Source: Brachybacterium saurashtrense (lineage in GTDB: Bacteria > Actinomycetota > Actinomycetes > Actinomycetales > Dermabacteraceae). From it: a stretch of 64,000 nt of DNA. The stretch covers positions 3,596,001-3,660,000 of the forward strand of contig NZ_CP031356.1 in assembly GCF_003355475.1 (NCBI RefSeq), given 5' to 3'. Below, piece after piece: positions 15,047 through 52,630 of this stretch. The notes beneath the pieces are model-generated. The model saw only the letters and a list, made by a program, of their open reading frames with translations. It had not been told where the DNA came from and searched no databases. Position 1 is the first letter of the stretch, and every line of letters begins with the position of its first letter. A program made the translations under genes and the position numbers.

Positions 15047-20010
<4,964 letters not shown>

Positions 20011-33756: not shown

Positions 33757-35670
33757 ATGAACGAACGGCCCGTGGGCAGTTCCTACCTGCTCAGCGACCA
33801 GCGGCTCGGGGCCGGCGCGATGGGCGTCGTGTACCGAGGCCGCGACCGGCAGGGGAACCCCTACGCGATCAAGGTGCTCCGAACCGAGTTCGCCGAGGAC
33901 CAGGTGCTGGTGCAGAAGTTCGTCCAGGAGAGGTCGGCACTGACCGGGGTCGACCATCCGCATGTGGTGGTGATGCGCGACCTGGTCGTCGAAGGAGGCA
34001 CATTGGCGATCGTCATGGAGCTCGTCGAAGGCCATGACCTCCGTGCAGAGCTGGCCTCGCACGGTCCGCTGCGACCAGCTGAGATCTCGTCCATCGGCGC
34101 AGCCGTCGCCTCGGGACTGGCCGCCGTCCATGCGGCTGGACTCATCCATCGCGATCTCAAGCCCGAGAACGTGCTGCTCGACACGACCGGGGGACGCCGG
34201 GTGCCGAAGGTCGCCGATTTCGGGATCTCACGCATCGCCGATGCGGCAGCGGCCACCAGGTCCACCGTGCCGATGGGCACCCCGAACTACGCCGCCCCGG
34301 AGATCGCGGACGGGAAGGTGCCCACGGGAGCCGCGGACGTGTACTCGCTGGGGATCATGCTCTATGAGCTGGCCTGCGGAGTCACGCCCTTTCAAGGGGG
34401 AAGTCAGCTCGCCGTGATGCGGCGCCACGCCGACGACGCGGTGCCGCGCCCGGAGGGCATCCCTGAGGACCTGTGGCGGACGATCGTCGACATGACCGCG
34501 AAGGATCCGCTCGCACGGCCCACGGCGGCACAGGTCGCGCTCTATCTCTCTCAGCTGGAGCAGCGTCTGTCGGGGGAGCGTCCCGCTCCGCAACTCACCG
34601 ATCCGCTGCCGACCGTGCCGCTGGTGCCCCGGAACACCGCTTCCCCGACGGCCGCGCTCCCTGCGGACACCGGCGCCTCTCCCACTGTCGCGCTCTCCTC
34701 GCCCACGGCCCGGATGACCCCGGTGCCGCGCGGCGCAAGGGTGACCGAGGCCGCTCCGCAGGAGGAGAGTGTGCGGCGCGGCCGCTCCCGCGGGATGCGG
34801 CGATTCTTCGCGGTGGCCGCTGCGCTCATGGTCCTCGGCGGTGCCGGTGGGGTGTTCGCGTACTCGCAGTGGGGCTCGGACGAAGCCCCTGACGAGGCCG
34901 CAGAGCGCTCCACCGAGGCCACGGAGGGCGGTGAGACTGCGCCATCAGGAGACTCGGTCGAGGAGACCGTCGAGGCGACGCGAGTCGCCGCGGGCGATCC
35001 CACGGGCGATGACGCAGGCGAGAGCGAGTCCGCGACCGCAGCGCCGTCACCGTCCCCGGAGGAGGTCCTCGCGATGCCCGATCTGGTGGGACAGTCGCTC
35101 GCCGAGGCGAAGCTCTCCCTGCCGGGCACCGAGATATCCGTGGTGGAGCAGCTCGATCCGGACACGGTGGACAACACGATCCTCGCGCAGACCGTCCCGG
35201 AAGGGGAGGAGGTGCCGGACAGCGTCGAGGTGACGGTCGCGCGACAGCCGGTGACCGTGTACCTGGACACCCTTGAGACGGCAGACGGATATGGCTTCGA
35301 CACCGACCTGGCCCACCTGGACGGAGAGACGTACCCGCGATCGGTCGTCTCGGATCTCTGGGACGACGACGGCTACGGTGAATGGAACCTCGGTCGCGGC
35401 TACCGCGAGATGGTGGCCCTAGTCGGGCGGTCCGATGATGCGACGGGCGCAGGGGAGACGGTCCAGGTCGATGTCTATCTCGACGGCCGCAGCGTGTGGT
35501 CGGAGCGGGTACAGGTCGGGAACCCGGTGGAGCTGCGGATCGACGTGACAGACGCGCTCCGTCTGCGCATCGAGTACACCTCGCTCGAGGAGGAAGAAGC
35601 GTATCTGGTCCTCGGTGACGTCCACCTGCTCGGACTGCCGGAGGAAGTCCCCGAGCCCGCCGATGAATGA
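33757..35670 (+). CDS. Receptor-type Ser/Thr protein kinase with PASTA and C-terminal sugar-binding-like domain
   Basis: A 637-aa transmembrane kinase. Kinase domain 8-275: Gly-rich loop LGAGAMGVVY (18-26), Lys39, catalytic HRDLKPEN (131-138), DFG (154-156) and APE. A Pro/Thr-rich juxtamembrane stretch leads to one transmembrane helix (349-371). Outside are an acidic linker, one PASTA repeat (about 439-496) and a beta-rich domain (497-637) resembling NPCBM carbohydrate-binding modules. RBS AGAAGGAG. The stop overlaps the start of a broken FHA-ABC gene, whose FHA domains would be natural readers of its phosphothreonines. Confidence 0.93.
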   Translation: MNERPVGSSYLLSDQRLGAGAMGVVYRGRDRQGNPYAIKVLRTEFAEDQVLVQKFVQERSALTGVDHPHVVVMRDLVVEGGTLAIVMELVEGHDLRAELASHGPLRPAEISSIGAAVASGLAAVHAAGLIHRDLKPENVLLDTTGGRRVPKVADFGISRIADAAAATRSTVPMGTPNYAAPEIADGKVPTGAADVYSLGIMLYELACGVTPFQGGSQLAVMRRHADDAVPRPEGIPEDLWRTIVDMTAKDPLARPTAAQVALYLSQLEQRLSGERPAPQLTDPLPTVPLVPRNTASPTAALPADTGASPTVALSSPTARMTPVPRGARVTEAAPQEESVRRGRSRGMRRFFAVAAALMVLGGAGGVFAYSQWGSDEAPDEAAERSTEATEGGETAPSGDSVEETVEATRVAAGDPTGDDAGESESATAAPSPSPEEVLAMPDLVGQSLAEAKLSLPGTEISVVEQLDPDTVDNTILAQTVPEGEEVPDSVEVTVARQPVTVYLDTLETADGYGFDTDLAHLDGETYPRSVVSDLWDDDGYGEWNLGRGYREMVALVGRSDDATGAGETVQVDVYLDGRSVWSERVQVGNPVELRIDVTDALRLRIEYTSLEEEEAYLVLGDVHLLGLPEEVPEPADE

Positions 35671-36396
35671 GAGCCCGCTCGGCAGCCCGTCCGCTCCCTA
35701 GGCTCGCCTGCTCTGGGCGGATGGCGAGCTGACCCTCGCCCCCGGCGACAGCGATTGCGTGGGGCGCTCCGACGAGCACCGGGTCCAGGTGGTCCATCCG
35801 CTGGTCTCGCGTTCCCATGCGAGAATCCGCCACCTCGGCGCCACCTGCGAAGTGTCGGACCTGGGCAGCACCCACGGCACGTTTCTCGCGGGGGAGAGGA
35901 TCCGCGGCGTCGTGACCGGGACGCTTCCGGCGTCTATGCAGCTGGGCCCGGCCGGGCCCGTGCTGCATCTCGTTCACGAGACCAGTGCGCCCTCCCCGGC
36001 GCTCGGCCGGGGTGCCTTCCATGAGGTGCTCATCGGACGGGACCACGCCTGTGAGGTTCGGCTCGGTGACCTCCTGGTCTCGCGTCGGCACGCCAGGATC
36101 AGCTGGGATGGACCGAGCCCGGTGGTCGAGGACCTGGGCAGCGTGAACGGGACCTACGTGGACGGCCATCGCATCACCCGGGCGGAGATCGACGCCGACA
36201 GCCTGCTCATGGTCGGCGGGAGCCGGCTGCAGGTCGATGCCAGCGGTGTCCGCCTGATCGAGGGCACCGAGGTCCGTTTCGCTACCGTCGGCCTGGGCGT
36301 CACGCTGCCCAGCGGTCGCACTCTGCTCGACGACGTCAGCTTCAGCCTGGCCCCGGGCGCCCTCATGGCCGTCATCGGCGGCTCCGGCACCGGCAA
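35663..36396 (+). pseudogene. FHA-FHA-ABC transporter gene, 5' part (interrupted)
   Basis: The 5' half of a gene continued at 49155-50693. From the ATG at 35663 (overlapping the kinase stop) the frame reads MNESPLGSPSAP and meets an in-frame TAG at 35699. Beyond it are two FHA domains (GRSDEHRV with SRSHAR and STHGTF; IGRDHACEV with SRRHAR and SVNGTY) and the start of an ATPase up to GGSGTG, where an island is inserted. Read on into the island, the frame ends at a TGA at 36413-36415. In intact relatives this is a phosphothreonine-binding ABC-2 exporter linked to the adjacent kinase. Confidence 0.88.
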
Positions 36397-36412
36397 TACC
36401 ACATGGCGGATC
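36380..36412. other. attL: left junction of the integrated island
   Basis: Sequence left of AA at 36395-36396 belongs to the Walker A codons of the FHA-ABC gene; sequence to the right (TACCACATGG) does not. The only bases shared with the right junction are this AA, as expected for the 2-bp crossover of a large serine integrase. Confidence 0.82.
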
Positions 36413-36413
36413 T

Positions 36414-36470
36414 GACGCCAGTAACGACTATCGACGACGACACGCTGATCAGCAATGAGCGACTGGCGTC
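36414..36470. repeat. 9-bp inverted repeat at the left end of the island
   Basis: GACGCCAGT (36414-36422) and ACTGGCGTC (36462-36470) are perfect inverted copies 39 bp apart, within 75 bp of the left junction and upstream of the first cargo gene. This could be a recombinase-accessory or regulator site, or a transcription-blocking hairpin. Confidence 0.5.
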
Positions 36471-36523
36471 GAAAACTAAAGTGATGTGATACCTTCTCTG
36501 TAGGTGGATGAAGGGAGCCTCAG

Positions 36524-37246
36524 GTGGCGATCGACGAGGGACGTGCATGGGCGTTGCGGGCGCTGGGAGCCGATGGAGTGCTGGTGCGGGAGCAGATCTC
36601 GGCCATCATCCGCGACTGCCACGAGAAGATGGCGAACGCGCAGGCGGAAGCCGACATGAAGCACACCGGCGTGTACGGGCAGATCTGGCGTAAGTGCCTG
36701 GATGAGTTTGTGGCGGTGCTCGGGCGGCTTCCCTCGGCTGAGATCATCCCGCGGCGGGGCTACAAGCTGGTCTCGTTCAACGGCGTGGTCCTCTTCCCGT
36801 GGCGCTTCGCCAGGGAGCGCTCCACGGACATCGGATCGCGTCCTTTCGCGGTGTCGGACACGCGTATCTCCCTCTTTAGGCAGGAACGGGATCTCGCGCA
36901 GCAGCGCCTAGACATTGAGTACGAGCACCCGGAACTGACCGAGGAGGAGCGAGAGCTTCTCAACGCCGAAGCCAAGGCGCTCGAAGAGACGCTGACGTCT
37001 CACCGCGTGGTCGTCGTGCCCTACGCGAGCAACTCGTCTGCGCTTCACAGCATCGACTGGGGCGAGGCGACTCTGGGAGCCGATGGCTACCTCACCTTTG
37101 TATCGATGGAGTCGTTGCTCGACGTCGGATCGGACTCGTTGGTGGATGTCGAGCCTGCAGAGGAAGAGGGCTTCTCGAACGGCCCTATCCCGCGCCCTCA
37201 GCTGGGGGTGAAGGAGGAAGAGGCAGACGGAGGCGCTCATGGATGA
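36524..37246 (+). CDS. Unknown protein paired with XRE/ImmA metallopeptidase
   Basis: A 240-aa soluble protein from a GTG start (RBS AAGGGAG). The N-terminal half is helical (ADGVLVREQISAIIRDCHEKMANAQAEADM); the middle has a charged helical hairpin and a VVVVPYASNSSALHSIDWGEA segment; the C-terminus is acidic. No family is recognised. Its stop overlaps the start of the metallopeptidase gene by 8 nt, so the two are translationally coupled. It may be the substrate or partner of that protease. Confidence 0.75.
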   Translation: MAIDEGRAWALRALGADGVLVREQISAIIRDCHEKMANAQAEADMKHTGVYGQIWRKCLDEFVAVLGRLPSAEIIPRRGYKLVSFNGVVLFPWRFARERSTDIGSRPFAVSDTRISLFRQERDLAQQRLDIEYEHPELTEEERELLNAEAKALEETLTSHRVVVVPYASNSSALHSIDWGEATLGADGYLTFVSMESLLDVGSDSLVDVEPAEEEGFSNGPIPRPQLGVKEEEADGGAHG

Positions 37247-38402
37247 CCGGGACACCCTGTTCTCCCTGGTCGGGCCATCCGATCGCCCTGACCTCGGTAC
37301 GGTCGCGGGCAGCTTCGACCCTGCACGCCTGACGCAGGCGCGTTTCGCGGCAGGCCTGTCGAAGGCCAAGCTCGCCGACCTCGTCGGGGTGACACCCGCG
37401 GCCATCGGTCAGTACGAGTCACAGTCCTCTACGCCCCGACGTGACCTCCTGCCCGTGCTCGCACGCGAACTGCACGTGCCCGTGGACTACTTCGCAACCG
37501 GCCGGCCGATCGGTCGAGTGGACGGCTCACAGGCGCACTTCCGGAGCTTGCGTTCGACGTCCGCGCGAGACCGCGCGAAGGCGATCGCGTTCATCGAGCA
37601 GGTGTGGGAGCTGACATTCGCGCTGGAGAAGAAGGTCCGCTTCCCGGAGGTCGATCTGCCACCGATCGACCGGGGGCACGCGGACCCGATTTCGGCTGCC
37701 CAGGCCCTTCGCGCGCAGTGGGGGCTTGGCTTGAAGCCGGTGAAGCATCTGGTCGCACTGGCGGAGTCGCACGGAATCGTCGTCAGTCTGCTCACGATGG
37801 CGAACGCGGATGTTGCTCGTGTTGGTGCATTCTCTACGTCGCACCTGGCAAGGCCAGTCATCGTGGTCACCCCGGAGCGGGCGAAGTCCGTGTTCGTGTA
37901 CCGGTTCACGATCGCGCACGAGCTCGGACACGTGCTGCTGCACGGTGAGGCGGCACCGGGTGACAAGCAGCAAGAACGCGAAGCGGACCAGTTCGCCGCT
38001 GAGTTCCTCACGCCGCGCTCCCAGATCGTGAACCTGCTGCCACGCACGGTGAACTTGTCTCGGCTGGACGAGTTGTCGCGACATTGGGGTGTCTCCGTCG
38101 ACTCGCTGCTGCTGCGGATGAAGGAGACCGGCACCGTCTCTGATGCATCGATCCGGCGCGGGTATCAGAAGCTGAACCAGTTGCGTAGCTCGGGACTGGA
38201 AACACCCGAACCCGTGAACGTCTACCCCGGAGAGGTGCCCTCGATGCTCGCGCAGGCGTCTGGGCTCGCCGATCAAGCAGGCTACGGGCAGGCCGACCTT
38301 GCACGAGAGCTGAAATGGCACCCCGCGCGGGTGCGCGAGGTCCTCGGTGCGGAAGACCCCCGACCAGCTCTACGGATCGTCGGCGACCCACCCCAGGCAT
38401 AG
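37239..38402 (+). CDS. XRE-family HTH / ImmA-IrrE metallopeptidase fusion
   Basis: A 387-aa protein with an N-terminal Cro/CI helix-turn-helix (about residues 30-85, LSKAKLADLVGVTPAAIGQYESQ) and a C-terminal ImmA/IrrE zinc peptidase domain with HELGH (227-231) and a downstream EREADQFAAEFL Glu helix. Such fusions control mobile elements by cleaving repressors after stress, or act in toxin-antitoxin-like and defence modules. It is coupled to an upstream unknown gene and ends next to convergent recombinase genes. Confidence 0.9.
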   Translation: MDDRDTLFSLVGPSDRPDLGTVAGSFDPARLTQARFAAGLSKAKLADLVGVTPAAIGQYESQSSTPRRDLLPVLARELHVPVDYFATGRPIGRVDGSQAHFRSLRSTSARDRAKAIAFIEQVWELTFALEKKVRFPEVDLPPIDRGHADPISAAQALRAQWGLGLKPVKHLVALAESHGIVVSLLTMANADVARVGAFSTSHLARPVIVVTPERAKSVFVYRFTIAHELGHVLLHGEAAPGDKQQEREADQFAAEFLTPRSQIVNLLPRTVNLSRLDELSRHWGVSVDSLLLRMKETGTVSDASIRRGYQKLNQLRSSGLETPEPVNVYPGEVPSMLAQASGLADQAGYGQADLARELKWHPARVREVLGAEDPRPALRIVGDPPQA

Positions 38403-38414
38403 GACTGCGTGCCA

Positions 38415-39770
38415 TCACTTGCGGGGATGCAGTTCGATGCGAAAGTCGAAATGCCTACCCGAGCGCCCGGACTGAACGATCAAGGTTGAGACGAGCGCAT
38501 CGACGATCGTGCGCTGGCGGCCGGCCGTCAGGACGCCGATGGTCGACGCAGCTTCTGGGTGTTGGCGGAGGAGTCTGCCTCTGAGGTGCCTGCGGAGATC
38601 GGCGTCGGCCTCGGCGATGATCGACGTGGGGTGAAGGCGCCGGTGAAGGAACGCCTTGTGCGTGATCTTGCCCGCACCGTACTGCTCCGCGGCAGTTAGC
38701 ATCTCTGTCGATGCGGCTTCGAGCATCGAGAGAAGCGTTGCGGGAGCGCGCACCGGAAGACACGTTAACGCTGAGGACTGGAGCCGTCCAAGCTGAGCGA
38801 TGACTGCTCGATTGGCCCGGCGCATGTCGGCGGCGACGCTGCCACACGAGCTGGGTTGCGCTCGGCACCGATACACGCGTTGCCCTTTGCTGGTGACTGT
38901 GCTCACCAGTCGGTGACCGCACGTGCCGCAGCGTGCGAGCGCGCCGAGGAGCGTCGTTGATGAACGGGTGGCGTCGCGTCGAGGCGCGAGTGGGATGGCG
39001 CGGATCAGCGCAGATTCGTCGGGGGTGATAGCCCTTTCCCATGTCCCTTGGTTAGGTCCGCGTTGAGAGTGAAGCCGGCTGCTGGTCAGAATCGATCGCG
39101 CTGTCGTCGGGCGCCAGGAGATTCCACCGGCGGGAGTGGGGATGCCGGCGTCCGTGAGCTCGCCGGCGATCACGGCGACGGAGAGGCCAGCGAGGTAACC
39201 ATGGACAATGCGCCGCAGCGTCCAAGCCTCGGACGGGTGGAGAGACCCATCGTCGAGATACCCGTAGTGGCGTCCTCCATGGAGTAGCCCGCGCGCTGCT
39301 GTTGGGCTCGCGCAACCCGCGCGCCTTTGTGGGCGGATTCGTAGTTCGCGAACGCGACGCGTTGACGGGCGAACAGGCGTCCCTCGTGCCGGTTGAGGTC
39401 GAAGCATCCGCCGTGGACGGGACTCCACCCGGATCGGGCGCATGTCGAGTAGGTCGAGAAGCTGTTCAAGCTCTCGGGGTTTGCGGTAGAGACGGTCCAG
39501 GTGCCACACGAGGATCGTTCCCGCTTCGGATTCCTCGAGTTGTCGGAGGAGCTGCTGGTAGGCGGGGCGTGCGCGGTCTTGGTAGGCGGAGACGGCTTCG
39601 TCGACGAACTCCATCGTGCGCGTGTAGCCGAGGTGGGCGGCGAGGGCGGTGCAGTCGGCTCGTTGTTGCTCGATGGAGGCGTGTTCGCTGGTGCGGTTCG
39701 CGGAGATCCGCAGGTAGAGCAGCGCAGTCGTTGTTCTGATGGGGATACTCCGAGCAGGCGCAGCCCGCAC
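38415..39770 (-). pseudogene. Large serine recombinase with two compensating frameshifts
   Basis: A 451-codon frame from GTG 39770. The resolvase domain (LLYLRIS with the nucleophile Ser; VWHLDRLYRKPRELEQLLDLLD) is followed by out-of-frame residues from about 117 to 160. In the neighbouring frame this stretch reads HGGCFDLNRHEGRLFARQRV and YESAHKGARVARA, the proper continuation. The frame is regained at LLHGGRHYGYL. An extra base near 39420 and a missing base near 39290 explain it. The recombinase zinc ribbon (CGTCGH, then CRAQPSSC) and coiled coil follow. Probably inactive unless these are sequencing errors. Confidence 0.8.
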
Positions 39771-39822
39771 CTGCTTCCCACGGGGGCGCGATCATCAGAC
39801 CGGACCGCGGGTGGGCGGTTGG

Positions 39823-41238
39823 TCAGGGGCGGTAGGTGATGCGGACGCGGCCGGGGTCGAAGCTTCGCCCGGGGCGTCCGGGAACGATCCGGAGGCGGGT
39901 GATCAGCGTGGTGATGACCGCGCGCTGGTCGGTGACATCCAGCGCGTCCCACCAGGCCTGTAGCGCGTGCCGGTTCCCGATCGGCGCCGCGTAGAGGGCG
40001 ATCGCCCCCTTGGCGGTGACCAGGCGCCGCTCGACATCGCGAAGCGCGGCAGCGGCGGCCTCGACCCCGCTGCGGTGTTCCCCGCGGGTGATGACACGGT
40101 CCTGGTAGTCCTGATCGAGCTGACCGATCCGTGTGTTGATCTTCACGACCTGCCGCAGTGGCCCGCTGGCCGACGCGTTGCCCGCGCCGACTCGCGGATG
40201 GGTGAGGCGGTGCAGGACGCGTTCGGTGACATAGGCATCGAGATGGGCGGCGTTGATGCTCAGCCCGCCACGTTCCGGACGGGACGGGTTCTTCTGGCAG
40301 GCGTATCGCCGCGTTTCGCCGGCGGGAGAGAGCTTCCCGGTGATGGTGAGCCCGGCGCCGCACTTCCCGCACCGCGCGATCCCACCCAACAGCGTCGGGA
40401 GGGCCGGTGTGGAGCGGCGGCGGGCGGGATCGGTGAGGATCGCCCGGATCTGCGCGGTCTACTCCGGGGGGATGATCGGTTCCCAATCACCCGGGCCGAG
40501 AATCTCCCGCCCACCCGCGGGGACCACCCGCGTGTCGGGAGCGTAGGCGCGTTGCCCGGAGATGCGGGCGGAGGACAGCACGCTGCGCACCGTGTACGGG
40601 TGCCACAGCCCAGACGTCCCGGTCCCGGCGCGCAGGGGCGGGATGCCGGAGCGGTTGAGCCAGGCGGTAATGGAACGCAGAGACTCGCCAGCGAGGAACC
40701 GATCGGCCATCTGCCGGATCACCGCCGCCTGCTCCGGGATCAGCACGCCGCCGGGCCCGTACCCGAACCGTGCGGGGCCGTGCCAGGCGCCTTGCTCGGC
40801 GAGGCGCTTGTTGGCGCGTTTGACGCGGTCGGACTTGTGCCCGGACTCGTACGCGGCGATCGCGACGAGCTGCCAGGCCATGAGCCGGCCCTCGGCGGTG
40901 TTCAGATCGAACCCGCCACCACGGACGGCCTCGATCCGCACCGGGTGCTGCTCGACCAGATCGATCAGGTCTTCGAGTTCACGCGGCTACCGGTAGAGGC
41001 GATCGACGTGCCAGACGACGATGTGCCTCACCGCGGCCCGCACCTGCGCGACCAGCGCGTCGTACCCGTTCCGTCGGCCACCATCGAACGCGGACACGTC
41101 GTTGTCGATGAACACCTGCGGATCGGTGAACCCGAGCTTCGCCGCGTGGGCGGCGCAGTCTTCTTGCTGGCGTTGGATGCCGGCTTGCAGGCCGGTGCGG
41201 TCCTGCGAGATCCGCAGATACACCGCCGCTTGCCCCAT
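39823..41238 (-). pseudogene. Second large serine recombinase with two in-frame amber codons
   Basis: One continuous frame of about 470 codons, interrupted by TAG at 40987-40989 (where the family has RLYRKPREL, here RLYR-stop-PREL) and TAG at 40459-40461 (PPE-stop-TAQIRAIL). The pieces are the resolvase domain (VYLRISQDRTG), the recombinase domain (GGGFDLNTAEGRLMAWQL, HGPARFGYG) and the zinc ribbon plus coiled coil (CGKCGAG, CQKNPS). It is a paralogue of the recombinase just downstream. Single-base changes at each codon would restore it. Confidence 0.82.
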
Positions 41239-41240
41239 CA

Positions 41241-41612
41241 CTACACCTCTGTCTCCCTCTCCCAAGGTAGGAGAGCGGAAATGTCCGTGGTCGTCCCTAA
41301 TGTTCCCGGTATGACTAGTGGTGTGTCCCGCGACGGCGATGTCTTGCCCTCCCGGCCTGCGAAGGAGGCCGTGCGCGAGATCTTCGTCGTGAGCGCTGTG
41401 GGGTTGTTCGTCGTGTTCGTCCTGGCTGCCATTCCTAGCTGTTGCGGGTCATGACGTCGCCGACCAGCGCGCTCCAGATCGAGGTCAGGCAACGATTCGT
41501 CACCCGCCGGGTAGACTGCCGCCGCAGCTTCCCGTTCGGCTGCTTCAACGTCCTCGACGGGCAAGAACGTGTCTGACTCCCCGTAGATCCCGTCCCAGTC
41601 GATCGCACCCAC
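41241..41612 (-). CDS. Hypothetical protein upstream of the recombinase
   Basis: A 123-codon frame from GTG 41612 whose first about 60 residues look protein-like and acidic (WDGIYGESDTFLPVEDVEAAERE, then PDLDLERAGRR). The later part overlaps a better supported plus-strand gene (41281-41454), so the true gene may end earlier or be degraded. TAGGCT lies 6 nt before the start codon, the layout of a leaderless transcript. No domain is recognised. Confidence 0.4.
   Translation of the reverse strand: MGAIDWDGIYGESDTFLPVEDVEAAEREAAAAVYPAGDESLPDLDLERAGRRRHDPQQLGMAARTNTTNNPTALTTKISRTASFAGREGKTSPSRDTPLVIPGTLGTTTDISALLPWERETEV
41281..41454 (+). CDS. 57-aa single-pass membrane protein
   Basis: Small gene with an excellent RBS (AGGAG, 8 nt before ATG). 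The product has a 33-residue polar N-terminus and one hydrophobic helix (residues about 34-53) ending in SCCGS. Family unknown. It is the only plus-strand gene between the recombinases and gajA. Small one-helix proteins are frequent in phage and defence islands as toxins or sensors, but no function can be claimed. Confidence 0.5.
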   Translation: MSVVVPNVPGMTSGVSRDGDVLPSRPAKEAVREIFVVSAVGLFVVFVLAAIPSCCGS

Positions 41613-41939: not shown

Positions 41940-43547
41940 ATGAAGCTCACTCGTCTGCACATCGCGAATCACAGTCGTATCGCGGATGTCTCGATCGATA
42001 TCCGCGACCATCTGGTGCTGGTGGGTGCGAATGACGTGGGCAAGAGCTCGGTGCTGCGTTGTCTTCAGCTCGTTCTCGGGGCGTCGACCGCTCAGCTGTA
42101 CGCGCAGATCGCCGGGGAGGACTTCCGAGACGCCGACAGCGAGTTCGTCGTGGAGGTCGAGCTTGTGGACTTCTCGGATGATGAGAAGGCGGCGTTTCCG
42201 GACGAGATCGACATCGACGCGATCACTGGGGCCAGAACGCTGGCGCTTCGCCTGAGCGCGAGCATCGACGCGAACGAGACGCTGAACGTCGAGCGGATCG
42301 CCGTGGGCGCGGGCACCCGACGTCAGCTGTCCAGGGCGCAGCTCGATGCGATCGGATGGCGGTTTCTCAGCGCCACGAGCCAGGCGCGTGAACTCCGCGA
42401 CGATCGCCGCTCGGCACTCAAAGACCTCCTGGAAGCAGTCGAGCTGGGCGCCGAGAAGGCGGACTTCGACGGTGCCGTGCAGCAACTGGCGACGGTGCTG
42501 TCGGAGTCGACGGTGATGGAAGGCGTCCGTACAGACCTTGCCACGCAGTTGACGAAGGCACTGCCGTCCGCGATCGACACCGACGATCTAACGTTCGTGC
42601 CCGGCTCATCGGCCGAGCAGGATGTCCTGAGCGACGTGCGCCTGCAGATCCAGAAGGACGGGACGCTGCGGGATCTCACGGCACAGTCCGACGGGATGCG
42701 TGCCCTGTATGCGATCGCGCTGTACGACCTGACAAGCTCGGGCGCCAACGTCGTGGGAATCGACGAACCCGAGATCCACCTCCACCCGACCAGCCAGCGC
42801 AGTCTGGCGCGCCTGCTGAAAGCCAGCAGCAGCCAGAAGATCATCGCGACGCACTCACCGGATATCGTCGGCGCGTTCGATCCCGACTCCATCGTCGTCG
42901 TCAAGGCCGGCGGCGTCTTGGTACAGCCGCTGGCTGGCTTTCTCACCAGCGATGAACGGTTGACCGTGCGCTGGTGGGTTCGCGACAGGCTCGAGCCGCT
43001 CACCGCCCGCCGCGTGATCGCAGTCGAAGGCATCGCCGACCGGATCATTGTCGAGCGAGCTGCGGACCTCACCAGCCGGACCCTCGACCGGCTCGGGGTC
43101 TCCCTCATCGAAACCAACGGTGCGGGCGACATGGGCGCGATCAACACCCTGTTCGGCCCCAGCGGCTTCGACGTTCCACTGTCCCTGCTGATCGACGCGG
43201 ACGCGGAGACAGCCACCGCCACCAAACTGGGCGTGCAGCCGACGGACCTGAACGCCAACTTCGTGTGGGTCTCGCGAGCGGATCTCGAAGACGAGTACGT
43301 CGCCGCCATCGGAGCAGCGCCCCTTCAAGCCGCTCTGGCCGCTTCCACCCTCTTCAAACCGAACCAGCTACGCGCGCTGCGGGCTACCGGTCCGGGCGGA
43401 ACGTTCACCGATGCCGACGTGGCGAGCTTCTGCAGGTCGTACAAGGTGAACGCGGCGCTGGTCGCTGTTTCGCTACTCGACCAGGCCGCCGCGCGTGCGA
43501 TTCGTAGCATCGAGGGGATGCTGTCGCAGGTCGAGGCCTCGCTATGA
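41940..43547 (+). CDS. gajA: Gabija GajA-like OLD-family ATPase/Toprim nuclease
   Basis: A 535-aa protein. N-terminal ABC-type ATPase: MKLTRLHIANHSRIADVSID start, Walker A GANDVGKSS (29-37), a signature-like QSDGMRAL (249-256), Walker B VVGIDEPEIHLHP (271-283) and a switch His in ATHSPD. C-terminal Toprim nuclease: Glu363 in AVEG and the DxD pair Asp419/Asp421 in LLIDADAE. This is a class 2 OLD nuclease, defined by pairing with a UvrD-like helicase, which overlaps by 4 nt downstream. In Gabija, GajA nicks invading DNA when nucleotides are depleted. All catalytic residues are present. Confidence 0.9.
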   Translation: MKLTRLHIANHSRIADVSIDIRDHLVLVGANDVGKSSVLRCLQLVLGASTAQLYAQIAGEDFRDADSEFVVEVELVDFSDDEKAAFPDEIDIDAITGARTLALRLSASIDANETLNVERIAVGAGTRRQLSRAQLDAIGWRFLSATSQARELRDDRRSALKDLLEAVELGAEKADFDGAVQQLATVLSESTVMEGVRTDLATQLTKALPSAIDTDDLTFVPGSSAEQDVLSDVRLQIQKDGTLRDLTAQSDGMRALYAIALYDLTSSGANVVGIDEPEIHLHPTSQRSLARLLKASSSQKIIATHSPDIVGAFDPDSIVVVKAGGVLVQPLAGFLTSDERLTVRWWVRDRLEPLTARRVIAVEGIADRIIVERAADLTSRTLDRLGVSLIETNGAGDMGAINTLFGPSGFDVPLSLLIDADAETATATKLGVQPTDLNANFVWVSRADLEDEYVAAIGAAPLQAALAASTLFKPNQLRALRATGPGGTFTDADVASFCRSYKVNAALVAVSLLDQAAARAIRSIEGMLSQVEASL

Positions 43548-45232
43548 AGATCCAGCCCACCGCAGCACAGGTCCAGATCCGCGACAGCAACCAGATGGGA
43601 ATGCTCGTCGTCGCACCAGCAGGGTGTGGCAAGAGCGAAGCGCTCGCACTGCGCGTGCAGGGGATGCTCCGTCGGGGTGTTGCCGCAGGGGCCCGACGCA
43701 TCCTGGTCGCCACATTCTCCAACCGCGCGAAGGACAACATCCGAGAACGCCTGCGCCATTACCTGACCCCAGCAGAGCTCCGCGACAAGGTGACCGTCAT
43801 CAACTTCCACGGGCTGTCTGCTCGCCTGTACCGATCGCACGCCGCCGCGATCGGCTTGGACCCAGAGTGGACTCTGCCGGAGAACGACTGGGTAAAGGAA
43901 CAGTGCCAGCGCGCCGGACTCAACTACGGACAAGCCGCCGGAGTCGACAAAGTGCTCCAATGCATCAAGCAGGACCCCGTGAACGACGCTGACGTGCTCC
44001 GGCTTGTCGAAGCACACGGAAACGTCGACGCCCTCGAGATCGAGCAGCTTCGCGTACAGGACCAGCAGCTCACCTACGATGATCTGCCGCGCATGGCCGA
44101 GTTGATCCTCGCTCGCGACGAAGTGGCAGACCTGTACCGGGTGCATTTCGTCGCGGTCGTGGTCGATGAGTTCCAGGACCTCACCCCTCAGCAGCTGCGG
44201 ATCATCAAACGGATCGGCGCCGGCCGCACCACCTATGCCGGCGACCTCGCCCAGGGCATCTACGGATTCACTGGAGCCAAGCCCGAAGAGGTGTACGCAC
44301 AGATCACCGACGAAGTAGGCGAGGTTGTCCAGTTGACCGAGTCGCATCGCTCATCACCGGCCGTGCTCGCCGCGGTGAACGCGTTAGTGCCGCTCACGCA
44401 CGGAACCGCGCTCACTTGCGCAGCCCCCGACACCTGGCCATCCGGTGGCATCGCCGTCGAAGTGAGCCATCAGACCGCAGACGCTGAGGCGGGGTGGCTC
44501 GTCAAGCTCGCGAAGGCCATCCTGTCCCGCGCCCCGGGCCAGCGCATCGGCGTCATCTCCCGCATCGGCTCGAGACGACGGTTCGCGGACGCCGCGTTCA
44601 CCGCCGAGCAAGGGTTCGAGGTTCACAGGTGGGACGACGGCGTGCTGGATACCGATACCGCACGTCGAGTCAAGTCGGTCCTGGCCAGCATGGACGCTGC
44701 AGCAGTTCTCGACGCGGACGACTCGATCGAGTTCCTGCGGGACTTCGCCGAATTCCACCAGATCCAGGATCCGGCGGATCGGCTCGCGCTCGCCGACGCC
44801 CTGGGCTGGGTACTCGAACTGCTCACGCAGGGGCTGACCCTGGCCGAGATCTCGAAACGAATCCGAGTCGGTGACAACTCGACCCTGCTCACCAAGCCAG
44901 GGGTTCACCTGCTCTCCGGCCACGCCGGAAAAGGACAGCAGTTCGACTGGGTCGTCGTCATCGGCCTCGAGGACGGCAACGTTCCCTTCTTCGAGGCAAA
45001 GAGCGACGAGGCCCTGCGAGAAGAGGCGCGCGTCCTCTCCGTGATGATGTCACGCGCCCGGCACGGGCTCATCCTGTCCCACGCGGCAGCGGTCCCCGCG
45101 CTGAACGGGAGAGTGTTCGCTAAGGAACCCTCGCGGTTCCTCACCTCTGCGCTGCGTGCGACCCTGACTGACACAGATGGGCTCGTTCAATGGTTCAGGA
45201 CCGCGTCGTGGGATGCGATCGCCAGGCGCTGA
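43544..45232 (+). CDS. gajB: Gabija GajB-like UvrD/PcrA-family helicase
   Basis: A 562-aa superfamily 1 helicase. Walker A PAGCGKSE (25-32), motif Ia ATFSNRAKDN, Walker B VVVDEFQDLTP (205-215), motif III AGDLAQGIYGF, motif IV LTESHRS, motif V SGHAGKGQQFDWV and motif VI VMMSRARHGLI. It overlaps gajA by 4 nt (ATGA). GajB proteins sense DNA ends or degraded nucleic acid and activate GajA. Slightly longer than the about 500-residue prototype. All SF1 motifs appear intact, so the Gabija pair is probably functional. Confidence 0.9.
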   Translation: MKIQPTAAQVQIRDSNQMGMLVVAPAGCGKSEALALRVQGMLRRGVAAGARRILVATFSNRAKDNIRERLRHYLTPAELRDKVTVINFHGLSARLYRSHAAAIGLDPEWTLPENDWVKEQCQRAGLNYGQAAGVDKVLQCIKQDPVNDADVLRLVEAHGNVDALEIEQLRVQDQQLTYDDLPRMAELILARDEVADLYRVHFVAVVVDEFQDLTPQQLRIIKRIGAGRTTYAGDLAQGIYGFTGAKPEEVYAQITDEVGEVVQLTESHRSSPAVLAAVNALVPLTHGTALTCAAPDTWPSGGIAVEVSHQTADAEAGWLVKLAKAILSRAPGQRIGVISRIGSRRRFADAAFTAEQGFEVHRWDDGVLDTDTARRVKSVLASMDAAAVLDADDSIEFLRDFAEFHQIQDPADRLALADALGWVLELLTQGLTLAEISKRIRVGDNSTLLTKPGVHLLSGHAGKGQQFDWVVVIGLEDGNVPFFEAKSDEALREEARVLSVMMSRARHGLILSHAAAVPALNGRVFAKEPSRFLTSALRATLTDTDGLVQWFRTASWDAIARR

Positions 45233-45296
45233 CCGACAGCCGACTCGCACATCACGTAGCAGCGTGCGTCCCGCCCAACGTCTCCGACCCAGTTCG

Positions 45297-45302
45297 TAGT
45301 CT
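45297..45302 (+). promoter_or_regulatory. Possible leaderless promoter of the first Mrr-like gene
   Basis: TAGTCT, a TANNNT -10 element, ends 6 nt before the GTG start at 45309. There is no Shine-Dalgarno sequence. This spacing places the transcription start on the start codon, a common actinobacterial arrangement. It suggests the gene has its own promoter rather than depending only on gajAB transcription. Confidence 0.5.
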
Positions 45303-45308
45303 TGAACT

Positions 45309-47054
45309 GTGCCCACCTACGACTGGCCGCTAATTCAGCAGCGGAGCGGAGACTCGATCGAGTCTCTTATCGCGACCCTCTTGCGCCGCGAGTACACCGA
45401 CGCGCGGCAGGTCAACCCGTCACAGGGTGATGGCGGCATCGACATCCTCCGCTCGACAGACGATGGCCTCGAGATCTGGCAGGTCAAAGGCTTCACGACC
45501 GCGATGACCGACAGCCAGTTCCGTCAGGTCAAGAAGTCTTGGGAACGGCTCGTAGAAGAACATGTCACACCAGGCAAACATCAGATCTTCCGCTACCACC
45601 TCGTGACGCCCTGGACACCGACCGAAGAGCGCATCACTCTGTTCGATGAGCTCACCGCGGACGCATCGTTCTCGTGCCAGTGGGACAGCGACGCCTTCAT
45701 CGCTGGTCTCGCGGACCGCTATCCCGAGACCATGCAGCGGTTCGTTCACGGTGAAGGGGTGCTGGAGCAGTTCATCAGCCAGAAGGCGATGCTGGCATCT
45801 TCGCCGGTCGAGCGTGGCGAATCGCTGACAATGCTCGATGCGATCGAGACCCGGCAGGACGCGCTGGACGTCATCCGTGACACGGTCAGCGAGAACTACC
45901 GTATTGAGCACGGCACCCGCACGGCGGCTAACGCCCATGACGTTCCGCTGCCGTCTGATGACGATCCGGCCGTCTATCACCGGATGACCTATCTCGGAGA
46001 CGCTCGGTGGAAATACGAGTCCGTCGTGCCGCGCTCCGTGGATGCCGTCGAGATCGATCCCATCATCCTGAACATGGAGTTCCTGGCGGCGCCGGGCACA
46101 CCTGAACATGACGCCGTGCGAGCGTGGTCCGAATGGGGCATTCCGTTCCAGGGCGCGCACGTCAGAACCACCACCGTCGGCGGTCCCTTCTCCGACGACG
46201 AGCCAGCCGAATCAACGGTCTCTTTCATCGAGAGAGGACGCGACGACGCGCCACCGCTCTACCTCCGCTGCATTACAAGCGACGGGGAGAGTCGGTTCCG
46301 CTTGCCGTTGGTCGTTGCCGCACGGACGGTCGGCACGCACACTGGCTGGTTGCGTCTGGTCGCCGACACACCAGAGCGAGCGCTCAACTTCGAGCTGCGT
46401 TTCAAGCAGGGCGAGGACACTGACGCAAAGGTGCAGATGGGGAACGTTGATGGGCGCAACCCCGAGGCTGTCCGCGATGAGCTCGAAACCCTGCTGAGCA
46501 TCAGCGAAGGCGATGTCATCTCCGTGGAAACCAGCAACGGCCAGTCACTGATTCGAACGCACGGAACAGTCCTGCCGACCGCGCTGGAAGCGATTCATCT
46601 ACCGGTGGCGCAGCATCTCGTCCAGTTGCAAGCTCACACGGCGGCCGTGCTCGTCATGCCCTCAATCGAGGAAATCACCGACGGTCAGTTCCGCTACCTC
46701 TCGCTCCTGGCCTCGATTTACGGTGGCACCGCGCACCGATGGAACTGGGCAGAGGTCACCCTCCGGGTGCCCGAGGATCCTGCCGAGGCACTGCGCATCA
46801 AGGAAGTCGCCGCGAACGTCGCCTCCGGCGGCCACCTGGTCAAGGTAGAAGAACCCGTGTTCCAGCTCGGGAACCGGACTTACACGATCGACCATCCTCT
46901 CGCAAGCACCGCGCATTCAGTCCAGTTCGAAGCAGGGATCGATCCCGCGGCCCTCCACCCTGGAGATACCTTCCGACTGATCCCCGGAGCCGACGCTGGC
47001 GTCACGACGGCGAAGATCGTTGACTGGACCCCCGGGAGTATCTCGTTCGACTGA
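45309..47054 (+). CDS. Mrr-like PD-(D/E)XK nuclease with uncharacterised C-terminal region (paralogue A)
   Basis: A 581-aa protein. Residues 10-130 form a restriction-endonuclease-like fold: Glu19 (SIESLIATLL), SQGDGGIDIL with Asp45, then EIWQVKGF with Gln58-x-Lys60, as in Mrr-type nucleases. LVTPWTPTEE follows, then about 430 residues, mostly beta-rich, with no family I recognise. It shares this whole architecture with the convergent gene 47103-48806. It lies 76 bp after gajB with its own likely promoter. A defence nuclease is the best guess; the long tail may sense or bind a trigger. Confidence 0.82.
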   Translation: MPTYDWPLIQQRSGDSIESLIATLLRREYTDARQVNPSQGDGGIDILRSTDDGLEIWQVKGFTTAMTDSQFRQVKKSWERLVEEHVTPGKHQIFRYHLVTPWTPTEERITLFDELTADASFSCQWDSDAFIAGLADRYPETMQRFVHGEGVLEQFISQKAMLASSPVERGESLTMLDAIETRQDALDVIRDTVSENYRIEHGTRTAANAHDVPLPSDDDPAVYHRMTYLGDARWKYESVVPRSVDAVEIDPIILNMEFLAAPGTPEHDAVRAWSEWGIPFQGAHVRTTTVGGPFSDDEPAESTVSFIERGRDDAPPLYLRCITSDGESRFRLPLVVAARTVGTHTGWLRLVADTPERALNFELRFKQGEDTDAKVQMGNVDGRNPEAVRDELETLLSISEGDVISVETSNGQSLIRTHGTVLPTALEAIHLPVAQHLVQLQAHTAAVLVMPSIEEITDGQFRYLSLLASIYGGTAHRWNWAEVTLRVPEDPAEALRIKEVAANVASGGHLVKVEEPVFQLGNRTYTIDHPLASTAHSVQFEAGIDPAALHPGDTFRLIPGADAGVTTAKIVDWTPGSISFD

Positions 47055-47102
47055 TCCGTAACTTCGGCTGATCCGTAACCGGGCCGGGGCAACCAGGGAG
47101 GC

Positions 47103-48806
47103 TCAACCTGCTGCGTCGTCTGAATGCTCCATGGGTAAGGAGAATCGGACGCGCCGATTGGGCGTCGTGAGCCAGTGCACCGACCGGCCATCGACTTCGC
47201 GTCGTTCAAGGATGGTTGCGTCTTCGATCCACATGCGAGCCGTGCCGAAGTGGATCGTCTGTTCACCGATGGTGACCTCAAGGGGGACGTCGATTGCGAG
47301 CAGACCCGGAATCGTGTCGACCTCGGCTGGCAGCTCGACCCCCAGGGCGTGGCCCTTGGGATAAGCAGCTATGACCACTTTCCCCTCGAGGATCGTGGCC
47401 GCGCGCCGCCACTCTGCAACCTGAGCGAAGGTGGTCTCGGTCAGGTCTGGAACTCGGACGATGGTGCCTGTGTGCTGTTGCAGCCGTGCCAGCGCGTCAA
47501 CCGGAGCTGCGACGCCGTTGAGGACCTCGCGTATCTCATCGGGGAAGTCGATATTCCAGTTCGGGTCGACGGTCGCGCTCAGGGGAGGGGCGCCTTTCCG
47601 TCGCACGTAGACGGTGTTCGGGTGTGACGTTGACGTGATGAAGGCCAAAGCAGTTTTTACGTCCGACGCGGGCTGGTTCGAGTAGTCGCCGAACCGGAAC
47701 TCTCGTTTTCCGCTCTCCGACGCCGTGTAGCGGTCCTCGATGGTGAAGACGTGGTTCTTCTGCTGCAGAACCACCCGGAGGCCTTTCGTGCCTTCGCTTC
47801 GCGCAATCCGGGTCACCTCGGTCTCGGCGATAGGCACACCCTCGGCGGAGCGGGTTGCGAGGATGAGGTCTGGGTCAGCTCCCACCTCGTCGTCAACCGG
47901 AAGGACTTGCATCGCCGCGTTCGTCAAGGGGCCGCCGAGACCGCCGGGCGCGTCGATACTGCCTGCAAATGCGCCAGCCGGTACCGCAAACGGTGCGCCG
48001 TAATCGAAGAAGTCTTGAAGAGCCGTCGCCAGATCGGAACCGCCTTCCGCGCTCACGGCCCCGGAGATGACAATCGGACGCTCCGTGGCCGAGGCTGCAC
48101 ATCGAGCGATGACGTCGACGGCCTGCCACTTCCTTCCCTGCCCGTCGGATTGAATCCACGTCATCATCAGGTTCGGCCGTTTGACCAGGCCCGGCAGCTC
48201 TCCCTCTCCAAGCCGGAGTTCGTACCGGTAGTGGGGATCTCCGTCGAGGACCGTGAGCGCTGTCGCCAACCGGGATGAAACGGTGGGGACGTCCAGCTTC
48301 TGACCTGCGTCGGCGGGAGCGAGCAGGGCAACGACTGCTTGGTAGGCCTGCTCGATGCGGCTCTTGCCGCCATCCAGGTAGTAATCGATGACTTCCGGGT
48401 ACTTTGCCGTGAGGGCCTCGACGTATGCCAGGCCGTTCCACGTTACAGTGCGCCCTCTGTCGTCGAGGCCTTGTAGCCAAGCGTCAGCTTCCGGCGTCGG
48501 ATCCCAGGGCGTGACTAGATGCCATTCCTCGACGTTGAGAGTGGCCCACCGAGGGTCGGTTTGCAGCCGAGTCCACGACTCCTCAACGTTGTTCTGTTGA
48601 GTCGTTGAGAGCGGCCCCGTGTAGCGCTTGACCTGGTAGACGACATCCCCGCCGTTCGCGGCCGCGCCTCTGTCGAGGATGTCGACCCCGCCATCGCCTC
48701 TTGAGGGTGTGATCCGCACAGAGTTTGGCCGTTCCCGGTTGATGAGCATCGCGACGACAGCCTCGACGTCGTTGCCCTCATATCGTGCCCAAGCGACGCG
48801 TGTCAT
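47103..48806 (-). CDS. Mrr-like PD-(D/E)XK nuclease with uncharacterised C-terminal region (paralogue B)
   Basis: A 567-aa paralogue of the convergent neighbour. Head: Glu15 (DVEAVVAML), PSRGDGGVDIL with Asp42, VVYQVKRYTG with Gln58-x-Lys60. Shared further on: LVTPWDPTPE, KYPEVIDYYLDGGKSRIEQAY matching RYPETMQRFVHGEGVLEQFI, and the late VDALARLQQHTGTIVRVP matching LVQLQAHTAAVLVMP. The start at 48806 has GGGAG upstream. The two genes meet tail to tail with 48 bp between stops, at the right end of the island. The pair may act as a heteromer or as two separate systems. Confidence 0.82.
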   Translation of the reverse strand: MTRVAWARYEGNDVEAVVAMLINRERPNSVRITPSRGDGGVDILDRGAAANGGDVVYQVKRYTGPLSTTQQNNVEESWTRLQTDPRWATLNVEEWHLVTPWDPTPEADAWLQGLDDRGRTVTWNGLAYVEALTAKYPEVIDYYLDGGKSRIEQAYQAVVALLAPADAGQKLDVPTVSSRLATALTVLDGDPHYRYELRLGEGELPGLVKRPNLMMTWIQSDGQGRKWQAVDVIARCAASATERPIVISGAVSAEGGSDLATALQDFFDYGAPFAVPAGAFAGSIDAPGGLGGPLTNAAMQVLPVDDEVGADPDLILATRSAEGVPIAETEVTRIARSEGTKGLRVVLQQKNHVFTIEDRYTASESGKREFRFGDYSNQPASDVKTALAFITSTSHPNTVYVRRKGAPPLSATVDPNWNIDFPDEIREVLNGVAAPVDALARLQQHTGTIVRVPDLTETTFAQVAEWRRAATILEGKVVIAAYPKGHALGVELPAEVDTIPGLLAIDVPLEVTIGEQTIHFGTARMWIEDATILERREVDGRSVHWLTTPNRRVRFSLPMEHSDDAAG

Positions 48807-48842
48807 CGGAGCCCGCTCCCTTCGTGCTTCATGGCCGCGCAT

Positions 48843-49129
48843 GCCGGCGATGAGCTCACCCTATCGGGCTCGACGCAAGGCCTGCCCCGCCTCGTTCGGC
48901 ACTCTGGCAGGGCGGATTCAGAGCGTGATCCCGAGGTCGCAGTCTCTGAGTGTTGAGCGTCCGGCTCACGAGTCCCGTGTCCGTGGTGATGTTTCTAGGT
49001 CGGCGAGAACGGGGAGGGAAGCCGTGTCGAGCCGTCGAGGCGTCAGAGATGCTACGCGCTTTCACGGGGAGCTCCGGATGGTCGGATGTGCACGGATGAA
49101 TACTTGTTCAAAGCAGGATTCAATGCGAG
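48843..49129. other. Right-end region of the island without a gene
   Basis: About 290 bp between the start of paralogue B and the right junction. No supported gene. It becomes AT-rich toward the junction (GAGAAAATATAGGGGG), which probably contains the recombinase-binding arm. Confidence 0.5.
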
Positions 49130-49175
49130 AAAATATAGGGGGTATCGTAGCGAAGACCACCCTGCTGAATGCGCT
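49130..49175. other. attR: right junction of the integrated island
   Basis: Right of AA at 49153-49154 the sequence GACCACCCTGCTGAATGC continues the Walker A codons (KTTLLNAL). To the left, TATCGTAGCG is island sequence. Joined with the right side of attL, the rebuilt attP contains GGTAT...ATACC spaced by 8 bp across the crossover. Confidence 0.82.
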
Positions 49176-50693
49176 GACCGCAGCCCAGCCTGCAACGTCC
49201 GGGCAGGTCCTTTACGACGCGCGTGACCTCTCCCAGCATCTGGAAAGCCTCCGCGGCAGCATAGGCGTGGTGCCTCAGGATGACGTCGTCCACCACCACC
49301 TCACGGCGCGGCAGGCACTCGGGTATGCCGCCGAGCTCCGGTTCGATCCCGAGGTCCCGAGCGCCGACAGGGAACGACGCGTGAGCGAGGTGCTCGAGGA
49401 GCTCGGCCTCACCGAGCACCAGCACACCCGTATCAGCTCCCTCTCCGGCGGGCAGCACAAGCGTGTCTCGGTGGCGATCGAACTGCTCACCCGCCCCTCT
49501 CTGCTGGTCCTCGACGAACCCACTTCGGGTCTCGACCTTGATCTCGTCGCCGAGGTGATGGAGACCCTCCGCCGACTGGCCGACGACGGACGGACCGTCC
49601 TGGTGGTCACCCATTCGCCGGAGGGCTTGGATCTGTGCGACCGCCTGCTCATCCTGGCCCCCGGTGGGAAGGTCTCCTTCTTCGGGGATCCGGACGACGC
49701 GCGTCCCCACTTCGGCGCCCAGACCTTCGGTGACGTCGTCGCCGCGACCAAAACCGATCCGGAGGGAACGGTCTCGCGGTTCCGTGCCTCGGCCGGCTAT
49801 GTGCGCGATGTGCGCACACCGATCGGCCGAATGGCCAGCACACGCACCGAGCTGGGTGAGGATCCCCGCTCGCCGTCGCTGCGGCGGCAGGCCTCCGTGG
49901 AGGGGCGACGCCAACTGCGGATCCTCTGGGCCGACCGCGCGCTCGCCGGCTTCGTGGTGGCCATGCCCCTCATCCTCGCGGCTCTCGTGCTGGTGATCCC
50001 GGGAGAGCAGGGCCTGGCCCACCCGGACCTGGCGAGCTGCCCTCGGGGCAGCCCAATCAGATCCTGATCGTGCTCACCCTCGGTGCGGTGTTCCTGGGAC
50101 TCTCCGCGAGCATCCGTGACCTGGTGACCGAGCGCGCGATCTTCGTGCGCGAGCGGGCTATCGGGCTCTCACCGGTCGCCTACGTCCTCGCCAAGCTCAG
50201 TGTGCTGGGAATGCTCACCCTCGCCCAGACAGTGATGCTGGTGCCCGTGGTGCTGCTGTTCCGGGACGGGCCCGACAGCGGAATCCTCCTGTGGCCAGCA
50301 GGAGAGCTCGTGCTCGCGCTGTGGCTGTGTGCCCTGACCAGCGCAGCGATGGGTCTGCTGGTCTCCTCCCTCGTGGGCTCCGGGGAGCAGACCTTGCCGG
50401 TGATGGTGGTGCTGGTGACGATGCAGCTGGTTCTCAGCGGCGGGTTGTTCCCTGTCGCAGATCGAGCCGTGCTCGAACAGCTCGCCTGGCTGTCCCCGTC
50501 GCGCTGGGGATTCGCGGCGATGGGAGCGACCTCTGACATCACGGCCATCTCCCTGGTGGGCGAGGATCCGCTGTGGGAGCCCAGCGCGTGGGTCTGGCTG
50601 GGTTGCCTGCTGATACTGTGCGTGCTGACCACGGTGTTGAGCGGGGCGGCGATGCGGCGGCTGGCGAGGCGCTACAGGGTGCGCGGGCGCTGA
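49155..50693 (+). pseudogene. FHA-ABC transporter gene, 3' part (frameshifted)
   Basis: Continuation of the gene begun at 35663. ATPase remainder: KTTLLNALTA, VPQDD (Q-loop), LSGGQHKRVSVAIELL (signature), LLVLDEPTSGLDLD (Walker B). Near 50030 the frame breaks: it ends at 50067, while the ABC-2 membrane domain (LTLGAVFLGLSASIRDLVTERAIF onward, about six helices) continues one frame over to 50693. A one-base indel between the ATPase and the first extracellular loop accounts for this. With the amber at codon 13 and the island, the gene carries three independent lesions. Confidence 0.87.
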
Positions 50694-50730: not shown

Positions 50731-52606
<1,876 letters not shown>

Positions 52607-52630
52607 CGGACGACCGTAGCAGAGTTCGCC

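Follow-up and report, generated by a model that had tools for sequence, protein, structure and literature searches.

Site-specific integrases usually bind an element to one gene or tRNA, and the large serine integrases of phages and of integrative and conjugative elements (ICEs) include the TP901-1, phiC31 and Bxb1 types. The near-invariant codons of P-loops are also exploited by inteins and homing elements, inteins splicing out of the protein. In the relevant passages of earlier reports, actinobacterial serine-recombinase elements are placed in protein genes and one tRNA gene (PMC3218068), the target of the SCC/ECC recombinases CcrAB is given as rlmH (PMC6222049), and the Mg-chelatase gene (comM/yifB) is the target of 12.4% of site-specific large serine recombinases (LSRs), while the domain DUF4368 is present in 63% of a multi-targeting clade (Durrant and colleagues, PMC10083194). 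The locus described here lies in a stretch of 64,000 nt from Brachybacterium saurashtrense (GCF_003355475.1, NZ_CP031356.1, positions 3,596,001-3,660,000, forward strand), hereafter the window, in which an island splits an FHA-ABC gene at the lysine codon of its Walker A motif. Comparison with related elements indicates that, very probably, this defence island is borne by recombinases and uses as its attB the DNA that spells the region of the Walker A lysine.

The island and its insertion site

The following features define the insertion:
35702..36396, + strand: N-terminal half of the FHA-ABC gene, with FHA matches, the start of the ABC domain and Walker A up to ..GTG-AA
36395..36396, + strand: left copy of the putative crossover dinucleotide AA, the first two bases of the Walker A lysine codon, from junction comparison
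36397..49154, no strand: island of 12,758 bp, from sequence reading of both junctions
49153..49154, + strand: right copy of the putative crossover dinucleotide AA, from junction comparison
49155..50693, + strand: FHA-ABC gene, C-terminal half, starting at the G of AAG, in frame 1 to ~50055 and in frame 3 from 50049

The left half ends at 36396 with the bases GGC GGC TCC GGC ACC GGC AA, the right half begins at 49155 with G ACC ACC CTG CTG, and joining the two at AA gives the single frame GGSGTGKTTLLNAL. An earlier note on this DNA, made from the letters alone, had proposed a precise insertion in Walker A codons whose excision would restore a continuous frame, and both proposals were borne out. 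A search of the 396 genomes of the order with the FHA-ABC protein gave matches in 18, the genome itself included, and the junction of the joined frame GGSGTGKTTLLNALT was free of gaps in alignments to 17 homologues, one from each of 17 other genomes (17 of 18 places, L024 being left out). These homologues are 39-52% identical to the FHA-ABC protein. Because all 17 keep the Walker A lysine, the G of AAG was assigned to the host side and the crossover was placed at AA. The note had also held AA to be the only shared bases; AA is indeed common to both junctions, but identity resumes past one mismatch with ACCAC (AA-T-ACCAC / AA-G-ACCAC). The junctions point to strand exchange at AA with a 2-bp overlap.

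Related elements, target junctions and the DNA word

Two recombinases, here termed RecA and RecB, are encoded within the island:
38415..39770, - strand: RecA, an LSR with two compensating frameshifts about 40 codons apart
39823..41238, - strand: RecB, an LSR with two in-frame TAG codons, 40987-40989 and 40459-40461

The earlier claim of two large serine integrases thus stands as to their presence, but neither is intact. A domain scan covered window RecA, the recombinase of an element in genome G481, RecA of locus L006 (Frigoribacterium sp. JB110) and RecB of locus L079 (genome G461, contig C516). Window RecA has the Resolvase N-terminal (65 bits), Recombinase (33.3 bits) and Zn-ribbon (25.6 bits) domains, each above cut-off, and the other three proteins have all three LSR domains, with the Zn-ribbon just below cut-off in two (25 and 21.7 vs 25.3).

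RecB and the one recombinase of the G481 element are 52% identical, and a search of the order genomes with the latter matched 18 of 396 at E<=1e-50, of which G000, G119, G264 and G320 fall in the clade described below. L006 RecA matched 3 of 186 genomes of family f17 at E<=1e-45. Window RecA matched only its own genome in the order at E<=1e-60 (1/396), no plasmid at 1e-20, and three phage records at 27-29% identity, while the island DNA matched no plasmid by megablast. In IMG/VR, neither L006 RecA nor the G481 recombinase had a match, and L006 RecB had one distant match (L025, 36%).

In a tree of 25 recombinases (L084, a short remnant, L093, L104, L105 and L108 being left out), a single clade of 11 rows (support 100/99) unites RecA, RecB and the recombinases of single-recombinase elements. 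Nine of these rows, from seven elements, have a Walker A lysine site, and the remaining two belong to L006; all nine rows with such a site fall inside the clade, and 14 rows lie outside it. The G503 recombinase, of which a remnant of 171 residues is left (96% identity to the G481 recombinase), was kept outside the tree, as were those of G085, G322 and G292 (38, 38 and 43% identity to the same protein). Inspection by eye of the 700 bp upstream of the recombinase at 13 more distant loci (L116-L128, 34-43% identical) showed no Walker A half. Two of these distant recombinases, at L116 (G085) and L125 (G292), lie by cpaF-like genes that appear by eye to be cut at other motifs (VVIPDIT and ALNSG).

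Target junctions were read for eight elements, in the window, G461 (contigs C516 and C222), G481, G503, G320, G119 and G264, with both ends for three of them. The target genes number seven or eight, depending on whether G461 C516 and C222 flank one ABC-F gene. Every junction read, four at N-terminal halves and seven at C-terminal halves, is AA|G of the Walker A lysine codon. The N-halves end before AA in VIGGSGTG, LTGANGSG, LVGPAGAG and LIGPNGAG, and the C-halves begin with KTTLLNALT, KTTAMSALK, KSTTMRLLI, KTTAMNALR, KTTLLGAML, KTTLLEALL and KSTMLSAIA. The targets are ABC, ABC-F-like and CpaF-type ATPases and TrwC/TraA-type relaxase-helicases, which are unrelated P-loop nucleoside triphosphatases (NTPases); the C-halves scanned against domain models (G481, G503, G119 and G320) begin at position 155 of T2SSE, 24 of ABC_tran (twice) and 31 of AAA_30. 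The suggestion that conserved P-loop codons serve as an attachment site, for which islands with related recombinases in such codons elsewhere had been named as a check, is therefore upheld by the 11 of 11 junctions in this one clade.

These boundaries were defined without reference to proteins, since element ends are common to elements with different flanks. One end is common to G461 C222, G481 and G503, which continue into KSTMLSAIAGRY, KTTLLGAMLREV (T2SSE model) and KTTLLEALLGRY (ABC model), and another, identical over 36 bp, to G320, G119 and G264, which continue into KTTAMSALKRAW (AAA_30), KSTTMRLLIDYL (ABC) and KTTAMNALRRAW (assigned by its likeness to G320). The second junction of G320 reads LVGPAGAG-AA|TACCACATG, at the end of a TrwC relaxase N-half, and gives an element of 19,122 bp; that of G119 reads LIGPNGAG-AA|TACCACGTG and gives one of 8,317 bp. 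The G461 contig C516 starts 53 bp before the core and reads ...RIRLTGANGSG-AA|TACCACATGG. Searches of the G481 contig and the G461 contig for a second junction found none.

Past the junction, the N-halves of the window, G461, G320 and G119 targets are translated as GNTTWRI*, GNTTWDL*, GNTTC* and GNTTCSF*. All four thus read G-N-T-T and stop 2-4 further codons on, so that the target is inactivated. The elements in relaxase-helicase genes lie at ~831035-850158 of G320 C1 and near 9046 of G264 C88 (L115), and the genes that they split probably serve the transfer of another mobile element.

The genome itself has 40 sites within 3 mismatches of the 24-base word GGCNCCGGCAAGACCACCCTGCTG and none for the reversed word, in agreement with the prediction of several such sites per genome. 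Of the AAG[AT]C[CG]AC words in 456,930 bases, 9 of 60 were in a Walker A frame, and with GGN in front (GGNAAG[AT]C[CG]AC) 9 of 13 were, an increase that indicates that the bases recognised by the enzyme probably include the upstream G's. These counts bear on an alternative that appears unlikely, namely a short relaxed target of about AAGWCSAC, with P-loops struck, in the absence of any tuning, because high-GC genomes spell Walker A in this way. The B' bases near the core that are common to the seven C-halves are only G-W-C-S-A-C, mirrored in P', as this alternative would have it, and multi-target recombinases with distinct motifs are on record in passages of PMC10083194. However, with 9 of 60 such words in Walker A, seven of seven targets there would be very unlikely (0.15^7), and once GGN is required a somewhat longer word suffices, so that the alternative merges with the reading of Walker A spelling as attB. 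A reader needing about GGN-AAG-WCSAC would meet mostly Walker A codons, making a protein-level cue unnecessary, and recognition by the clade recombinases would then be at the level of DNA.

The window copy is probably an old, decayed insertion, a fossil, because both recombinases are disrupted and the target gene carries two further lesions. One is an in-frame TAG at 35699, shortly downstream of the ATG at 35663; the other is a frameshift near 50,040, across which the alignment to homologue L007 moves from frame 1 (49153-50055) to frame 3 (50049-50639). Such a copy would be immobile at present. Sequencing errors in the recombinases of an island that still moves offer a doubtful explanation of the lesions: one RecA frameshift does lie at a short C run, and RecB otherwise shares 77% identity with its G461 counterpart, but the two RecB TAGs are in-frame stops rather than indels, and G461 RecA, L006 RecB, G264 and G503 are also broken, though G481, G461 C222, G320 and G119 are open. 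The break at the window RecB TAG (40987) and that at the G461 RecA frameshift (L079 ~6116) both fall directly after a D-R-[LI]-Y-R motif, a shared position that may be coincidence.

An intact FHA-ABC gene, or empty site, in relatives within the genus had been suggested as a check, and none was found: the protein had no match in the other 37 genomes of the genus at E<=1e-60. The target gene itself is therefore accessory, and the empty site rests on the homologues that are 39-52% identical. This null result also counts against an ordinary integrase devoted to the FHA-ABC gene alone. Although 82.8-88.3% of LSR clusters are predicted to have 1-3 gene clusters as targets in the passages of PMC10083194, such an integrase is contradicted by same-clade elements in CpaF-type, ABC-F-like, ABC and relaxase-helicase genes, and is highly improbable. 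An artefact of assembly or annotation at either junction (36396 or 49153), a danger raised earlier and at which the surrounding frameshifts and TAG could hint as sequence errors, is extremely unlikely, as the assembly is one 3.72-Mb contig and the two ends of the island are found again in other genomes.

Several points weigh against the reading of the Walker A lysine spelling as the attB of this lineage. No empty site was obtained from a close relative. Both junctions stand on one contig in three elements only, so that five elements rest on one junction, and two of these single-junction elements rest on flanks of 52-53 bp at a contig start. The two G461 contigs may flank the same ABC-F gene, which would leave seven targets. 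L006, which has the same recombinase pair and GajB, is without a readable insertion site, and its left edge is a truncated GajA beside a siderophore-type gene, not a P-loop gene. Finally, with both window recombinases disrupted, movement of the window copy by its own enzymes is unsupported.

Element ends and a proposed model of recombination

The ends of the island provide two half-sites:
36397..36416, + strand: P' half-site TACCACATGGCGGATCTGAC, island left end; other P' arms agree at 16-20 of 22 positions
49129..49152, + strand: P half-site GAAAATATAGGGGGTATCGTAGCG, island right end; including AA, 4 mismatches in 26 against the arm at L079:16578

The left-arm consensus is AA-TACCAC-RTG-N7-TGAC, N7 being approximate (in word form, AATACCAC-RTG-N6-8-TGAC), and five P' arms share TACCAC(A/G)TG together with TGAC at positions 17-20. 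The window P arm recurs at L079:16578-16625 (G461 C516), where it is followed directly by AA and a P' arm to form an intact attP-like P.AA.P', which provides independent support for the right end of the island. This junction can be read as two tandem elements of the clade. The 58-kb C516 contig has one recombinase pair only, and the second element may be a passenger or may end at contig C222. Two other scans gave matches that were set aside as chance. A P'-arm pattern scan of IMG/VR found three contigs with no recombinase at E 1e-3 and no preceding P-loop, and a comparison of the attP arms with L006 and L025 had a best E of 0.048.

The complete G320 and G119 elements have one recombinase each at E<=1e-6, and the window and G461 elements have two. 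When each P arm was compared with its own P', inverted, 14/22 positions agreed in G320 and 13/22 in G119 (0 and 8 of 20,000 shuffles as high), vs 5/22 in both the window and G461 (13,597 and 15,318 of 20,000 shuffles as high). The near-palindromic attP of single-recombinase elements and the asymmetric attP of paired ones suggest that RecA reads the odd P arm in the latter. The G481-type P arm agrees with P' of other elements at 12-14/22. Two considerations count against this role of RecA: the symmetry contrast compares two paired with two single elements for which both arms are known, and single-recombinase P arms agree with the P' of others at 10-14/22, of which 10 was reached by 330 of 20,000 shuffles.

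A model can be proposed in which a clade recombinase brings a circular element, with attP composed of P-arm.AA.P'-arm, to an attB of about GGN-AA|G-WC-SAC (G-K-[T/S]-T), where strands would be exchanged at the AA of the lysine codon. The split gene would then read ...GxxxxG-AA|TACCAC(A/G)TG... at one junction and ...AA|G(A/T)C(C/G)AC... at the other. The P' half-site begins with N-A-C-C-A-C, which is a spelling of the Thr-Thr past the lysine, and the sharing of this word with P-loops would account for the use of attP and of many P-loops by one and the same recombinase; its recurrence across P-loop families would allow the lineage to land in many unrelated ATPase genes. A RecB-type recombinase alone appears to be enough in single-recombinase elements, where attP is near-palindromic. 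In the paired form (window and G461), RecA probably serves the differing P arm, as part of a heteromer, and in the window both recombinases would have decayed after insertion. It is likely, if less firmly so than the nature of attB, that a serine recombinase lineage evolved the use of the Walker A lysine spelling as attB, which would open dozens of sites per high-GC genome to defence islands, relaxase genes of rival mobile elements among them, and that duplication gave RecA and RecB, one paralogue for each attP arm.

Island cargo and comparison with known systems

The remaining island genes are as follows:
36524..37246, + strand: open reading frame (ORF) of 240 aa without a family match
37239..38402, + strand: helix-turn-helix (HTH) and ImmA/IrrE peptidase protein (PADLOC RmrA-type), from profile matches
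41763..43547, + strand: GajA of Gabija (PDLC00075, 725 bits), the profile match starting at ~41940
43544..45232, + strand: GajB helicase of Gabija (PDLC00121, 699 bits)
45309..47054, + strand: Mrr-like protein 1, a weak match (Mrr_cat E 0.054, under cut-off; Avs2 N-terminal region E 1e-5)
47103..48842, - strand: Mrr-like protein 2 (Mrr_cat 23 bits vs cut-off 21)

GajA and GajB are adjacent, as is required of a Gabija system, and their genes overlap. The two Mrr-like proteins are convergently encoded, ~580 aa each and alike by eye at their N-termini, and could possibly be an unrecognised defence pair. No relaxase or FtsK-type transfer gene was found in the seven island proteins and one antisense ORF scanned, a set that did not include RecB. 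Cargo varies among the related elements. L006 shares the RecB-RecA pair and carries GajB together with a truncated GajA, while in G461 (L079) two type IIG restriction-modification-like proteins and one PDC-M36A-like protein are encoded alongside the recombinase pair. The G461 element also has a 38% identical counterpart of the HTH/ImmA/IrrE protein at the equivalent position, and an ORF at the position of the 240-aa ORF that is dissimilar to it at E 1e-5. In the G320 element, the first 270 residues of one protein match Dsr1, and there is an element-borne RecD/Tra-like protein.

Outside the island, synteny between the window and three sister genomes is limited to thiC and one 308-base match at 69%. 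A thiamine pyrophosphate (TPP) riboswitch lies upstream of thiC (52498-52607, - strand), and thiC was matched in three of eight sister genomes tested. The low-GC stretch of the window is explained by an rRNA operon (16S, 23S, 5S) at 15049-20246. At 6779-6869, ARAGORN reported an odd tRNA-??? with a two-base anticodon, for which Rfam gave no tRNA match at its gathering score.

A recombinase that recognises codons shared by many unrelated genes would represent a different answer to the problem of host range, as its site is nearly invariant through protein function and yet present in many copies per genome. The clade offers a testable model of recognition common to attP and attB, a natural test case for heteromeric serine recombinases with an asymmetric attP, and perhaps a means of inserting DNA into P-loop genes. 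Its elements also knock out relaxase genes that probably belong to other mobile elements (G320 and G264).

The clade recombinases resemble the large serine integrases of phages and ICEs in their Resolvase, Recombinase and Zn-ribbon architecture and in having attB in coding genes, the best phage match to the G481 recombinase being Streptomyces phage phiCAM (32% identical), but they differ in targeting motif codons of non-homologous genes and in that some elements carry a recombinase pair. Two adjacent large serine recombinases and variable cargo are also found in SCC/ECC elements with CcrA and CcrB; window RecA fell under the cut-offs of the Ccr models (CcrA 16.8, CcrB 20.2 and CcrC 20.2 bits; cut-offs 700, 900 and 900). 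The multi-targeting TndX-like DUF4368 LSRs likewise have several unrelated target genes per lineage, but the example given in passages of PMC10083194 has a TT core and T/A-rich ends, in contrast to the GC-rich coding motif of the Walker A clade. No match to DUF4368 was found at E 0.1 in window RecA, the G481 recombinase, L006 RecA or L079 RecB. Unlike an intein, the window island inactivates its target.

A likeness is also seen in the comM/yifB LSRs, whose target is a conserved ATPase gene and one of which, in G070 C15 (L057), splits yifB/comM inside Walker A at GPP|GSGKT with the shared core GGCCCGCC. The G070 recombinase differs in lying on a long branch outside the clade, in its crossover position and in having one target gene, and, to judge from sequence, G070 is a parallel case in a different clade. 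In a survey of yifB/comM, made to see whether P-loops are targeted more generally, at least 385 of 396 genomes had a match, 33 genomes were hand-picked for several matches or a low score and 10 stretches were inspected; splits lay near residues 78 and 310, and the only Walker A split was that of G070. Walker A codons as a shared attB are undescribed in the passages of PMC10083194, PMC6222049 and PMC3218068 considered here, and no serine recombinase aimed at Walker A or P-loops across NTPase families was found among the titles and abstract openings of the literature searched, supplements lying outside that search. As an LSR-borne island, the element is therefore of a known kind, while its target logic, the use of Walker A codons across NTPase families, appears to be new.

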